DNA from: Nostocaceae cyanobacterium CSSed10_463m
GTDB taxonomy: Bacteria; Cyanobacteriota; Cyanobacteriia; Cyanobacteriales; Nostocaceae
Assembly (NCBI GenBank): GCA_003556955.1
Contig: PWQB01000716.1
Coordinates: 1-7,048, forward strand
Reading direction: 5' to 3'
Length of the DNA stretch: 7,048 nucleotides
A model generated the notes under the pieces. The model was not told the origin of the DNA. It searched no databases and was given only the letters and a program-made list of their open reading frames with translations. The position numbers were made by a program, and so were the translations under genes. Shown here in pieces: positions 2,894-6,822 of the stretch (within the stretch, counting starts at the first letter, position 1; every line of letters begins with the position of its first letter).

Positions 2894-2977
2894 TTAATTA
2901 CCTATTTCGTGCAAAACCGCCAGTTGTAGCGTTTTAATATACGGTGCTTTAAACCCAAATTTTCGGTAATAAACCAT
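2894..2977 (-). CDS. Possible 27-codon ORF just after the riboswitch
   Basis: An ATG at 2977 is preceded by GAGG with 5 bases between, and starts 35 bases after the riboswitch. It opens a 27-codon frame (MVYYRKFGFKAPYIKTLQLA, then VLHEIGN). The position and ribosome site are what a riboswitch-controlled start would look like. The peptide resembles nothing I know, and so short a frame can easily arise by chance. It might be a leader peptide or the 5' stub of a lost gene. Confidence 0.15.
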   Translation of the reverse strand: MVYYRKFGFKAPYIKTLQLAVLHEIGN

Positions 2978-3011
2978 CCGTGCCTCGCAGATGTACAAAA
3001 TTTACAAATTA

Positions 3012-3128
3012 ACTTCGGCGGGCATTCTGACTCACAAGGCAAGCCTTGATTACAGTTGCGGGACAGCGCCGGATTTACACCGGACTTTCCCCGTTTCCTC
3101 CAGAGGCTGTTCCCCACTAGAACCGAGA
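3012..3128 (-). ncRNA. Cobalamin (B12) riboswitch, short form
   Basis: Read on the minus strand, the segment has the conserved core in the right order: GGGGAAAGUCCGGUG, then UAAAUCCGGCGCUG, then UCCCGCAACUGUAA, then the B12 box GAGUCAGAAUGCCCGCC at about 3032-3017. CCGG pairs with CCGG to form the P4-like hairpin, CAAGG-CUUG-CCUUG (3048-3035) is a tight tetraloop hairpin, and UCGG (3126-3123) can pair with CCGA (3018-3015) as P1. Such riboswitches bind adenosyl- or methylcobalamin-type ligands and usually repress B12 synthesis or uptake genes, or B12-independent isozymes. It points left, away from nrdA. No obvious terminator hairpin follows, so if active it would act on translation or on something I cannot see. 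The family call is strong; the target is unclear. Confidence 0.9.
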
Positions 3129-3137
3129 TTACTTTGC

Positions 3138-3143
3138 ATCTTA
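3138..3143 (-). promoter_or_regulatory. Possible -10 box for the riboswitch transcript
   Basis: TAAGAT on the minus strand would start transcription near 3131, just before the riboswitch P1 stem. No strong -35 hexamer is present; TTTACG about 20 bases upstream is the best candidate. Placement fits better than sequence. Confidence 0.3.
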
Positions 3144-3310
3144 ACACAACTGTGATTTACTTGCGTAAAAATCAATGGTCGATCTATACTGACATTCGTC
3201 ATTAATCGCGGCAAGTCTCATTCTTTACTAAAACTTGCTCTGGATTTTTATTGGGTAATTCTTTGAGAAATTTTTCAACCCAACAAACTTTTTCGGGTTG
3301 CCAGCTTTTG

Positions 3311-3339
3311 CTGACATAGCGCTGACAATTTTTTATATT
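3311..3339 (+). promoter_or_regulatory. Sigma70-type promoter of nrdAB
   Basis: CTGACA at 3311-3316, a 17-base spacer and TATATT at 3334-3339: five of six consensus bases in both boxes. Transcription would start near 3346, giving a leader of about 60 bases before the ATG at 3409. This argues against the earlier in-frame start at 3298 for nrdA. It also means this transcript would not include the antisense of the riboswitch. I see no convincing NrdR box next to it. Confidence 0.55.
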
Positions 3340-3408
3340 GGTAAACCTAGTAAACAATTCTTTTCCATTCAGGCAATTATTTTTCTCCAATCGATTAACT
3401 TATCTAGT

Positions 3409-5664
3409 ATGCAAGCTCCATCCAAACTTTTTGAGAACTCCAAAACGGATATCTATGTTGTTCGTCGTGATGGTTCGACAACACCGTTAGAAATTAATAA
3501 AATTCGCACAGTAGTTAATTGGGCTTGTTGCGGATTTTCAGCAAATTCTATTGCCTTAGAAGCACATCTGACAACTCGATTGCGTCCCGGTATTACGACG
3601 AGAGAAATTCAAGATAATTTAATTCGCTGTGCCTTAGATTTGTGCAGTCCTGAAGAACCTGATTGGCGATATGTCGCAGGGCGATTACATATTTGGAGTT
3701 TGTGGAAAGATACTCAAGTTAGCCGTGGTTATCAATACGGTTACTATGCTCAAACTGTACATGACAAAGTTCTCAAAGGAGAATACGATCGCCGCATCTT
3801 AATCTACACTCCTGAAGAATTAGAAATTGCCAATACTTGGATTAATCCTGACTGGGATGCCGACTATGATTATGCAGGAGCAGTATTACTGACGAAGCGG
3901 TATTTGTTGGTAAATGAGTTACCCCAGGAAGCATTTTTAACTTGTGCGCTGTTGATAGCCTCCGTAGAGTTACCAGAGAATCGCTTACCTTGGGCGCGGA
4001 GATTTTATGAAGCGATCGCTCGTCGTCAAATATCCTTAGCAACGCCGATTTTAGCGAACTTACGGATTCCCAACGGTTCTCTTGCCAGTTGTTTCATTAC
4101 GGCAATGGACGACAATTTAGAAAGCATTTTTGAGAGTATTCATGATGCGGCTCGGATTTCCAAAAATGGCGGCGGTGTGGGTGTGAATCTGTCTCGGATT
4201 CGGGCTACTGGTAGTTGGGTGATGGGAAAGAAGAACGCCTCTGGCGGTGTCGTTCCCTGGATTAAATTATTGAATGATACAGCGATCGCAGTCAATCAAG
4301 GTGGACGTAGAGCCGGTGCTGTCACCGTCAGTCTAGATGTTTGGCATTTAGATTTACCTGAATTTTTGGAAATGCAAACCGAGAATGGAGACGCACGACG
4401 CAAAGCTTATGATGTGTTTCCGCAATTGGTTGTCAGTGATGAATTTATGCGAAGGGTGCAAGCGGATACAGAATGGACGTTGGTAGATCCCTATGAGGTA
4501 CAAACTCGTTTAGGGATTGAATTAGCGGGGTTATGGGGTGAAGCATTTGAAAAGGCTTATCTTCAAATCGAAGCCAGTTTAGAAAGGGAGATTACACTTT
4601 ACAAACGGGTGAATGCTCGTCTTTTACTCAAACAGGTGATGCGAACCCAATTAGAAACCGGGATGCCTTACCTATGGTTTAAAGATACCGCGAACCGAGC
4701 TAATCCCAATCAGCATGAAGGTTATATTCCTGGTGGAAACTTGTGTCAAGAATCTTGGTCAAATGTGAAACCGGGTGAAGAAGCACATTCATGCAATTTG
4801 ACAAGTATTAATCTGGCAAACTTAGAGGACAAACAGTTAGCAGAAATTTGTCAGATTGCAGTACGTATATTAGATAACACCATTGAACTCACCTCACCGC
4901 CCTTTGCTGCTAGTGCTACCCACAACACCAAATATCGCACAATTGGGGTGGGCTGTATGGGATTAGCCGATTGGTTAGCAAAACGTCACCTGACTTATAC
5001 TCATCTTCAGAAAATCAGCGATTTATTTGAAGATATCGGTTACTACTGCACCGCAGCATCAATGGAATTAGGGAAAGAACGGGGTGCGTATCCTGCTTTT
5101 GCGGGTAGTGAATGGAGCAAGGGACATTTAATAGGAGCAAAACCTGTAGATTGGTTTAAGCAACACGCAAGTCAACCAGAACGTTTTTTACAACTAAGTC
5201 GAGATATCCAGCAATATGGGATTCGCAATTCACATATTACTGCGATCGCACCCAATACTTCTTCATCTTTAGTTCAGGGTTGTACAGCCAGTGTTTTACC
5301 CATTTATAGCAAATTCTTTTATGAAAAGTGGGCAAAGGGTTCAGTACCGATCGCACCGCCTTACATTCGGGATAATCTATGGTTCTATGTAGAAAATAAG
5401 ACACTAGATCAGAAAAAAGTGGTGCGGGCGATCGCCACAATTCAACAATGGATTGATACTGGAATTTCGATGGAATTGTTATTTAACTTGAACGCTGGAG
5501 TTTATTTCCCCGAAGAACCAGAGCGATGTCTTACAGCTGTTGATATTTTTGAAACCATCATGCTGGCTTGGGAATTGGGCTGTAAAGCAATCTACTACAT
5601 TCGCACTGTGCAGAAAGATAGTTTCAAAGAATCGGACGAGCAATGTATTGCTTGTGCAAACTGA
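3409..5664 (+). CDS. nrdA: Ribonucleoside-diphosphate reductase, class I, alpha (large) subunit
   Basis: Encodes 751 aa from the ATG at 3409, close to E. coli NrdA (761). With NrdB it reduces ribonucleoside diphosphates to deoxyribonucleotides in the cytoplasm. An ATP-cone lies at about residues 14-103 (YVVRRDGSTTPLEINKIR, ITTREIQ). The catalytic barrel carries the redox pair C228 (ASCFI) and C462 (HSCNLTSINL), the N444-x-C446-x-E448 triad in GGNLCQES, the KNGGGVGVNLS loop (about 252-262), the IGVGCMGLADW block, the APNTSSSLVQG loop, and the radical-relay pair Y729-Y730 (AIYYIRT). The C-terminus ends CIACAN, the CxxC swinging tail that re-reduces the active site. No intein and no missing key residue. 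An in-frame ATG at 3298 would add 37 hydrophobic residues unlike the family, and lies upstream of the likely promoter. nrdB follows after about 100 bases on the same strand, probably in the same transcript. Confidence 0.95.
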   Translation: MQAPSKLFENSKTDIYVVRRDGSTTPLEINKIRTVVNWACCGFSANSIALEAHLTTRLRPGITTREIQDNLIRCALDLCSPEEPDWRYVAGRLHIWSLWKDTQVSRGYQYGYYAQTVHDKVLKGEYDRRILIYTPEELEIANTWINPDWDADYDYAGAVLLTKRYLLVNELPQEAFLTCALLIASVELPENRLPWARRFYEAIARRQISLATPILANLRIPNGSLASCFITAMDDNLESIFESIHDAARISKNGGGVGVNLSRIRATGSWVMGKKNASGGVVPWIKLLNDTAIAVNQGGRRAGAVTVSLDVWHLDLPEFLEMQTENGDARRKAYDVFPQLVVSDEFMRRVQADTEWTLVDPYEVQTRLGIELAGLWGEAFEKAYLQIEASLEREITLYKRVNARLLLKQVMRTQLETGMPYLWFKDTANRANPNQHEGYIPGGNLCQESWSNVKPGEEAHSCNLTSINLANLEDKQLAEICQIAVRILDNTIELTSPPFAASATHNTKYRTIGVGCMGLADWLAKRHLTYTHLQKISDLFEDIGYYCTAASMELGKERGAYPAFAGSEWSKGHLIGAKPVDWFKQHASQPERFLQLSRDIQQYGIRNSHITAIAPNTSSSLVQGCTASVLPIYSKFFYEKWAKGSVPIAPPYIRDNLWFYVENKTLDQKKVVRAIATIQQWIDTGISMELLFNLNAGVYFPEEPERCLTAVDIFETIMLAWELGCKAIYYIRTVQKDSFKESDEQCIACAN

Positions 5665-5763: not shown

Positions 5764-6822
5764 ATGTACCAGCTAAAGCAATCACCAATGCCAATTAATC
5801 CCGTTTTCAATCCCAATGGAAATGATGATACAGGCAACCGTTTAATTTGGTTTGGGCAGACTACGAACTTAATGCAATTAAACGACGTTCGCTACTCGTG
5901 GGCTGTGTCTCTCTATAGGCAAATGCGTGAGAACTTTTGGATTCCTGAAAAAATTGATATTACTCAGGACGTAACAGATTACGTCAATCTCACACCTGGA
6001 GAACGACGTGCATTTGATGGCATCCTTAGTTATCTGACGTTTCTCGATTCAGTGCAAACTTGTAATGTGCCTCATATCAAAAATAGCATTACCGCACCAG
6101 AAATTGCATTGTGTATGGCAGAGCAAATTTCCCAAGAGGCAATGCACAATCAGTCCTATCAATACATCATTGAAACGGTTATTCCCAGCGACCGCCGGAC
6201 ACAAGTTTATGATTTTTGGCGGAGCGATCGCATTCTCAAAGAACGATGCGAATTTATCGCTGGACTATATCAAAAGTATGTTGATAATCCCACATCAGAG
6301 AATTATTTCGTATCGCTGTTAGCTGATTATTTGTTAGAAGGATTGTATTTCTATAACGGGTTTATATTTTTCTACAATCTCTCATCCCGGATGCTCATGT
6401 CTGGGAGTGCCGATATTTTTAGAATGATTAACCGAGATGAACTTTCTCATGTGCGACTGTATCAAAAATTGATTCCAGAAGCGATGCAAGTTTTCCCCCA
6501 CAGCCGCGAACAAATTTATGAAATGTTTGCTGTTGCTGTCGAGCATGAATGCAAGTGGACAGCACATATTGTCGGAGATGATATTTTGGGCATTACAGCC
6601 AACAGTACAGAACATTATACAAAATATTTGGCAAATACTCGCTTGAAGGCGATCGGTTTAGAACCATTGTTTGGGGAAGCTATCTATAAGAAAAGCCCCT
6701 ATGCTCACTTGGAACGTTTCTCAGATACTAAGAAAGAAGCAAATACAAAAGCAAACTTTTTTGAGGCGAGTGTAACTAGTTACGTTATGTCCTCTAGTGT
6801 TGAAGGTTGGGAAGATTTTTAA
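5764..6822 (+). CDS. nrdB: Ribonucleoside-diphosphate reductase, class I, beta (small, radical-carrying) subunit
   Basis: Encodes 352 aa from the ATG at 5764. It holds the metal centre and tyrosyl radical that start NrdA catalysis. All ligands expected from E. coli NrdB are visible: D95 (FLDSVQ), E125 and H128 (QEAMHNQSY), E192 (LLEGLYFY), E226 and H229 (RDELSH). The radical tyrosine is present as Y132, so this is a tyrosyl-radical enzyme rather than the Phe-bearing class Ic type. Relay residues W59 (ENFWIPEKID), D225 and the C-terminal Y340 are also there. The tail SSSVEGWEDF has the acidic and aromatic ending that docks on NrdA. The start is uncertain: the ATG at 5788 (MPINPVFNPNG) matches the family start as I recall it and would give 344 aa; TTG at 5716 is less likely. 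None has a clear ribosome site. Confidence 0.95.
   Translation: MYQLKQSPMPINPVFNPNGNDDTGNRLIWFGQTTNLMQLNDVRYSWAVSLYRQMRENFWIPEKIDITQDVTDYVNLTPGERRAFDGILSYLTFLDSVQTCNVPHIKNSITAPEIALCMAEQISQEAMHNQSYQYIIETVIPSDRRTQVYDFWRSDRILKERCEFIAGLYQKYVDNPTSENYFVSLLADYLLEGLYFYNGFIFFYNLSSRMLMSGSADIFRMINRDELSHVRLYQKLIPEAMQVFPHSREQIYEMFAVAVEHECKWTAHIVGDDILGITANSTEHYTKYLANTRLKAIGLEPLFGEAIYKKSPYAHLERFSDTKKEANTKANFFEASVTSYVMSSSVEGWEDF

Follow-up and report, generated by a model that had tools for sequence, protein, structure and literature searches.

A conserved cobalamin riboswitch divergent from nrdAB in a Nostocaceae cyanobacterium, and the short leader open reading frame behind it

Introduction

Why does a vitamin B12 riboswitch stand beside the genes of a class I ribonucleotide reductase and point away from them? 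The question is raised by a contig of 7,048 nucleotides (nt) from the Nostocaceae cyanobacterium CSSed10_463m (PWQB01000716.1, assembly GCA_003556955.1; the window hereafter), in which a cobalamin riboswitch is read leftward on the minus strand and nrdA and nrdB run to the right on the plus strand. The original prediction, made from the letters alone, offered three explanations: a local inversion, loss of the riboswitch's own target gene, or a small RNA or peptide acting on nrdAB in trans. Its observation is confirmed by the present analysis and its interpretation is partly supported. The riboswitch is intact, real and divergent from nrdAB. It probably forms the 5' leader of a leftward transcript of the B12 regulon, on which it would act through a relay by a short leader open reading frame (ORF), with nrdAB as a divergent neighbour.

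Results

Riboswitch and expression platform

Searching the window against Rfam yielded a single cobalamin riboswitch (RF00174) on the minus strand, scoring 57.6 bits (gathering score 31.5; E 1.3e-12); the match is full-length and includes the B12 box, and no other match was found up to an E value of 0.5. The covariance search thus bears out the orientation and completeness of the predicted core. The B12 box, GTCAGAATGCCCGCC, was read by eye at 3031–3017 (predicted at about 3032–3017), and both nrd genes and the short ORF directly behind the riboswitch were found where they had been placed (Table 1). The aptamer is followed by a hairpin that we take to be P13/L13 of the expression platform. Its loop carries the Shine-Dalgarno sequence GAGG, and the ATG of the 27-codon leader ORF stands 5 nt further on; the ribosome-binding site and the start of a short ORF both lie within the platform, as in the ppe2 type of riboswitch.

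How common this arrangement is was assessed with two collections. The first consists of 80 riboswitches from whole-genome Rfam searches of 13 relatives and is independent of the motif (two matches below the cut-off and one above it are omitted). GAGG occupies the P13 loop in 69 of the 80, and the frame that it opens has at least 60 codons at 18 sites, 20–59 codons at 47 (of the whole 80) and fewer at 4. Among the 51 sites with a short frame a standard start codon is near in 31, and the other two frames remain open for 20 codons in 4 and 15. The second collection holds 159 distinct aptamer–P13 sites, found by a search pattern of which GAGG is a part (with one mismatch tolerated) in loci of which 60 were collected using a model of the leader; its leader shares are therefore not estimates, and the set of 80 is the fairer one. 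A frame of 20–59 codons is opened at 125 of the 159 sites. At 21 the Shine-Dalgarno sequence opens directly on a gene (start codon ATG at 18, GTG at 1, ATT at 2) from the DUF1636, CobW, TonB receptor, BtuF-like or CbiM groups, which makes the platform look translational. CobW, DUF1636, MetE and the TonB receptor are named here from annotated members of the same protein clusters; CbiM and BtuF-like, like GlmU and the flavin adenine dinucleotide (FAD) enzyme below, are presumptive labels. Loop L5 (GGTGN) and L13 (GYAC) are compatible in 134 of the 150 sites (out of 159) that could be parsed, a figure to be read with the fact that the parse itself fixed GGTG.

The leaders of 98 sites form one homologous cluster, to which that of the window belongs. 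In 92 of them the leader frame runs for 20 codons or more without a stop, compared with 7 and 37 for the other two frames. When one site was taken from each of the 17 remaining leader clusters, the frame was open in 15, against 1 and 7; two of the 17 have no standard start codon, and the leader of locus L013 in fact belongs to the first cluster and carries an insertion. Overall, the anatomy indicates a translational platform that most often serves a short ORF.

Orientation relative to nrdA

A search with NrdA gave 105 loci, of which the best 80 were kept (2 have less than 600 nt upstream of nrdA). Rfam was run at the gathering score on 17 of them and a local model built from 25 Nostocales aptamers on all 80; distant aptamers may escape this model. 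A minus-strand riboswitch lies within 1.6 kb upstream of nrdA in 15 of the 80 loci (L001–L009, L012, L013, L051, L054, L059 and L060). In a sixteenth, L011 (Tychonema), a decayed copy was found at 7427–7586 (44 bits with the local model; 20.1 bits with Rfam, below the cut-off). The gene behind it, which we take to be glmU, is on the opposite strand, and the copy is probably a relic. With the local model no riboswitch on the nrdA strand was detected in front of nrdA in any of the 80 loci; the sole plus-strand match (L059:1010) is 6.8 kb away, and none thus occupies the 5' untranslated region of nrdA as in the Streptomyces type. In the window 267 nt separate the aptamer from the nrdA start, as against 266 nt in L001, L012 and L013. 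Conservation of both orientation and spacing excludes a fresh local inversion, and the riboswitch divergent from nrdA is a conserved layout, neither an inversion nor an orphan.

Genes behind the riboswitch

As originally described, the riboswitch had only the 27-codon ORF, a 66-codon ORF (p66) or a noncoding RNA to control. This view does not hold: a methyltransferase gene lies on the same strand about 600 nt downstream, and relatives carry this conserved gene in the same position, which dissolves the apparent misplacement; such a gene in relatives is an outcome that the original prediction had named as its own refutation. The protein appears to resemble Sll0418, the MPBQ/MSBQ methyltransferase that takes part in making plastoquinone and tocopherol. 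A search of 12 relatives found the gene in 11; in 9 genomes it follows the nrdA-side riboswitch at a distance of no more than about 2.1 kb. The ratio of nonsynonymous to synonymous differences (pN/pS) is 0.144 for the methyltransferase and, by the same method, 0.53 for p66 in frame (0.86 and 1.02 in its other two frames).

In L001, L012 and L013 the riboswitch and leader ORF are followed by p66, the MPBQ-type methyltransferase, the FAD enzyme, CobW and p160, and in L001 by a second methyltransferase after p160. Relative to L001 the window has a deletion of about 3.3 kb, which took the FAD enzyme, CobW, p160 and the N-terminal half of the second methyltransferase. The suggestion that the target was lost is therefore right for these genes and wrong for p66 and the MPBQ-type methyltransferase, which survive.

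Divergent nrdA within 3 kb was seen at 23 of the 159 sites, the window counted. Other nrdA-divergent loci have DUF1636–metE (L009) or p160 first (L005–L008 and L059), and away from nrdA some sites have CobW first; CobW-like genes open directly in the P13 loop at L008:1108–1256 and L059:5424–5572. Within the leader cluster a recurrent downstream family was found at 89 of 98 sites (DUF1636 36, p66 16, methyltransferase 16, p160 10, CobW 6, MetE 2, others 3), a count that omits ORFs shorter than 80 codons, such as the 66-codon p66. The median gap from leader to next recurrent gene is 161–543 nt in the five main families.

Peptide or RNA in the leader

Selection on the leader peptide was assessed by pN/pS. 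Across subfamilies (26 aligned sequences) the value was 0.43 in frame, reached by 4 of 300 column shuffles, and one reverse frame was even lower (0.35). In the largest subfamily, A1, with 36 distinct sequences, it was 0.89, where shuffles averaged 0.79 and 63 of 80 came out as low. For the other subfamilies, with the number of 200 shuffles as low in brackets, it was 0.76 (42) for F2, 0.87 (144) for B, 0.99 (125) for K, 0.71 (29) for T, 0.66 (62) for E, 0.48 (4) for M, 0.44 (16) for C and 3.75 (200) for D; the window's own subfamily, A2, was left out. A conserved peptide was thus rejected, the values within subfamilies being mostly 0.66–0.99 or more against 0.144 for the methyltransferase. The M and perhaps the C peptides may be constrained, but in most families the peptide seems immaterial, and the evidence on peptide versus RNA is mixed.

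The weak constraint in A1 is also what would be expected if control were that of a plain operon, in which the level of the entire leftward mRNA drops on B12 binding and the leader ORF is incidental, being what remains of a duplicated gene start. Where a DUF1636 gene stands immediately under the switch, it begins MTTTVNISP.., close to the leader starts (M/V)N..INIS, and the leaders could accordingly be copied gene starts. A mere leftover does not, however, explain why ungapped identity among 35 leader sequences is 0.80–0.90 over the first 100 nt and 0.31–0.39 past 140 nt (indels add to the fall), nor why the frame is kept open in the other leader clusters as well. We regard plain operon control as rather unlikely, though it deserves to be taken seriously.

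What is conserved could instead be a structured RNA, a hairpin (TTCTCATAG..CTATGAGA, enclosing a loop of about 34 nt) that serves as a binding or processing site and that translation only modulates. Subfamilies differ in frame because of a 4-nt indel, and yet their nucleotide sequences remain similar across it. In 85 leaders (alignment A3; 13 of the 98 were dropped beforehand, namely the E and M groups and three rows hard to align) the 14-pair helix is formed in 83.1% of cells, and two-sided changes were counted in 45 cells versus 24.5 in shuffles (0 of 500 reach 45). Versions of the helix slid along the alignment pair in 31–53% of cells, a control that favours the helix because it was drawn from the majority subfamily. 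The number of pairs with a two-sided change (9 versus 6.9; 69 of 500 shuffles) and of further pair types (23 versus 20.9; 86 of 500) is ordinary, and RNAalifold returned no consensus pair for the leader alignment. The folding energies of leaders equal those of shuffles (mean z −0.14, −0.23 and −0.20), and better folding is seen in the 115 nt that come next (−0.93, −1.00 and −0.75); the window's own leader folds somewhat better than its shuffles (z −2.04). On balance a structured leader RNA is an unlikely explanation. Pairing of the leader with the P13 arm was also considered and was no better than in shuffles (mean z 0.16, 0.48 and −0.32).

Class II reductase, B12 islands and nrdAB

The original prediction linked the riboswitch to the coexistence of class I and B12-dependent class II reductases, and such a link was seen in 24 hand-picked genomes of relatives. 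Class II reductase (TIGR02505, RTPR) scored above the cut-off in 16; 15 of these have an intact riboswitch by nrdA, and the other is that with the decayed copy. None of the 8 genomes without class II has a riboswitch there, among them Richelia (L010), which is free of the riboswitch genome-wide. TIGR02504 gave nothing above its cut-off in the 24 genomes and matched nrdA itself, leaving TIGR02505 as the right family. Among 81 above-cut-off riboswitches in 13 genomes, 41 lie within 25 kb of nrdA, where 0.48 would be expected at random. metE shares some of these islands; on a plasmid of Calothrix NIES-4105, for instance, it stands behind DUF1636, back to back with nrdAB.

On that same plasmid two riboswitches with leaders of the same subfamily flank nrdAB (L009:7724–7869 and L009:12342–12492), which suggests copying of a cassette.

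Between the aptamer and nrdA lies an intergenic block that is kept in all 17 aligned upstream regions, the window counted, and that contains a −10-like TATACT (3185–3190). The block is also present in L010 and hence likely serves nrdA; the nrdAB transcript probably starts near 3197, outside the riboswitch. The nrdA promoter proposed earlier at 3311–3339 fared less well, as it is only one of 5 consensus matches where shuffles have a mean of 3.3. The accompanying remark that simple antisense overlap is unsupported stands, since TATACT too is outside the aptamer; antisense control of nrdA was rejected, the 17 aligned regions giving it no support.

The riboswitch might nevertheless also control nrdAB, in trans by a small RNA or peptide or through interplay of promoters. 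Its occurrence by nrdA only where class II exists and the position of the promoter block between both transcripts would fit. Against this, the block is kept in the riboswitch-less L010 and no aptamer precedes nrdA on its own strand in the 80 loci; for a trans-acting RNA or peptide no evidence was found, pairing of the leader with nrdA mRNA not having been tested. We consider such control improbable; nrdAB is probably tied to B12 through membership of the island and not through cis action of the riboswitch RNA. An inversion or orphan riboswitch peculiar to this strain can hardly be credited: about 3.3 kb of the downstream gene set is missing relative to L001, but the divergent orientation and spacing recur in relatives and p66 and the methyltransferase are retained.

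Table 1. Positions of features in the window.
Feature	Position	Strand	Remarks
Cobalamin riboswitch aptamer (RF00174)	3000–3142	−	57.6 bits, model positions 1–189
Expression-platform hairpin (presumed P13/L13)	2975–2993	−	Loop with Shine-Dalgarno GAGG (2986–2983)
Leader ORF, 27 codons	2894–2977	−	ATG 2977–2975, 5 nt after GAGG; in 98-site leader cluster
Conserved intergenic block, probable divergent promoters	3143–3215		17 of 17 aligned regions
nrdA, class I ribonucleotide reductase alpha	3409–5664	+	
nrdB, class I ribonucleotide reductase beta	5764–6822	+	
p66, 66-codon ORF, no assigned function	2445–2645	−	Kept in relatives; weak coding constraint
S-adenosylmethionine methyltransferase	1396–2397	−	85–92% identical protein in 11 of 12 relatives
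Remnant of second methyltransferase, 129-codon ORF	1001–1390	−	290 amino acids in L001; deletion junction at about 1410

Other features

Just 3' of nrdA, matches to group I introns (RF00028) were found in four Nostocales nrdAB loci, at L007:5018–5368, L008:7991–8340, L013:10515–10844 and L059:11592–11978; the window has no RF00028 match. The nrdA match extends over about 3.2 kb or more, compared with 2.25 kb, in L059, L060, L061, L065, L068 and L070–L078. As L059 and L060 each have one open frame of 1140 amino acids, the long nrdA probably carries an intein. At the left end of the window two adjacent small proteins, similar to each other, are encoded on the minus strand (29–376 and 449–823) and have no confident family match. 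A palindrome, AGATCCCCGACTTCTTGAAGAAGTCGGGGATCT, was noted by eye at 869–901 and is possibly a terminator or repeat.

Discussion

We propose the following sequence of events, in which the relay step and the B12-dependent masking are predicted from sequence. When adenosylcobalamin is scarce, the Shine-Dalgarno sequence would be free and ribosomes would translate the 27-codon leader ORF; their passage would keep the following RNA open or stable and so allow expression of p66 and the MPBQ-type methyltransferase and, in relatives, also of the FAD enzyme, CobW, DUF1636 and MetE. Once B12 is bound, an L5–L13 kissing loop would hide the Shine-Dalgarno sequence, the leader would no longer be translated and expression of the downstream genes would fall. 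nrdAB, as the B12-independent isozyme, would belong to the same island and promoter region without sharing the riboswitch, and probably has a promoter of its own. As for the link between leader and genes, Rho (TIGR00767) was above the cut-off in 0 of 16 relatives (best 31 versus 509 bits; 8 of 14 control genomes above). In the window between 2380 and 3500 the only terminator-like site is the P13 hairpin itself. With no Rho above the cut-off in these relatives, no conserved terminator in the groups scanned and gaps mostly too long for stop–start coupling, transcript stability or unfolding would be the likeliest link.

Several observations weigh against a leader-ORF relay of this kind. The codon adjoining the Shine-Dalgarno sequence is ATG or GTG in only 50 of the 98 leaders of the cluster, the largest subfamily has its ATG 12 nt further on instead, and the closure of frame 1 is partly due to TGA within ATGA. 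In the window 248 nt separate the leader stop from p66, which excludes stop–start coupling there. No terminator proved to be conserved in the groups scanned. Hairpins of terminator type turned up within 700 nt for 8 of 40 and 21 of 49 leaders, and their positions vary; the scan left out the A2 group (9 sites, window included), and the 49 are group F, a remainder and not a clean subfamily. The methyltransferase is on another replicon in G008, about 15 kb away in G007 and was not found in G014 in the search of 12 relatives. It is mostly single copy (next matches 37–39% identical; second copies in G009 and G404), which fits strict B12 repression poorly and speaks for a separate promoter in addition to any control by the riboswitch; a promoter-like match at 2713–2685 on the minus strand, ahead of p66, suggests that p66 and the methyltransferase may have one. 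Finally, the class II contrast among the 24 picked genomes is largely one between Nostocales and other orders, so kinship may explain it.

More tentatively, and with more doubt than belief, the relay may be extended to the Nostocales at large. Here the riboswitch and leader would be a reusable cassette in which translation of the leader ORF, not its peptide, relays the signal to varied operons without Rho. The cassette would have been copied into islands of B12-independent isozymes (nrdAB, metE) and cobalt or B12 genes, so that one could no longer tell from a riboswitch's strand which isozyme it serves.

An apparent misplacement thus becomes a conserved layout, and a common leader-ORF cassette is exposed behind Nostocales B12 riboswitches. 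If the relay is true, a step is overlooked when riboswitches are annotated by the nearest gene, and regulation by B12 in bacteria without Rho takes a route that was not found in the literature searched. The islands also make the idea of B12-independent backup enzymes testable within one locus.

A literature search, mostly at the level of abstracts and covering few subscription papers, turned up neither leader ORFs of cyanobacterial B12 riboswitches nor the divergent nrdAB layout; the available text of PMC1242208 has nothing on that layout, and we put forward the B12-gated relay as one not found for cyanobacteria in this literature. A small RNA of the Eut type, mentioned in PMC4991794, is a terminated B12-riboswitch transcript that captures an ANTAR regulator. 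In Streptomyces a B12 riboswitch stands in front of nrdABS (Borovok 2006, as cited in PMC4991794). The cyanobacterial loci likewise have a class Ia reductase beside a B12 riboswitch and a co-occurring class II enzyme, here seen in the relatives' genomes, but their riboswitch points away from nrdA. B12-independent methionine synthase and ribonucleotide reductase are reported to carry B12 riboswitches (PMC2770081). This agrees with the presence of metE behind related riboswitches in the same islands, although here a leader ORF, and often DUF1636 as well, intervenes between riboswitch and metE. According to the same 2009 source, cyanobacterial cobW orthologs are not under a B12 riboswitch, a statement on which the CobW-like genes in the platforms of L008 and L059 bear.

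The closest parallels to the relay come from Mycobacterium tuberculosis. In Mbox-rv1805A, whose ligand is Mg2+, the upstream ORF is conserved and termination is Rho-dependent (PMC12810186). That riboswitch acts directly on the small upstream ORF through a translational platform, as is predicted here, but the present ligand is B12 and Rho does not pass the cut-off in the relatives. The ppe2 riboswitch responds to B12 as an OFF switch and hides the region in which translation of a short ORF ahead of the gene is initiated; this ORF overlaps the gene (AUGA) and works mostly by termination–reinitiation (PMC11260477). The two systems have in common a short ORF that precedes a gene and has its start region in the platform of a B12 riboswitch, with masking predicted in our case. 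They differ in that the stop and start overlap in ppe2, whereas 248 nt to p66 in the window, and medians of hundreds of nucleotides in the main families, separate them here, and in that the cyanobacterial leader family spans several kinds of operon with a peptide that is mostly unconstrained.

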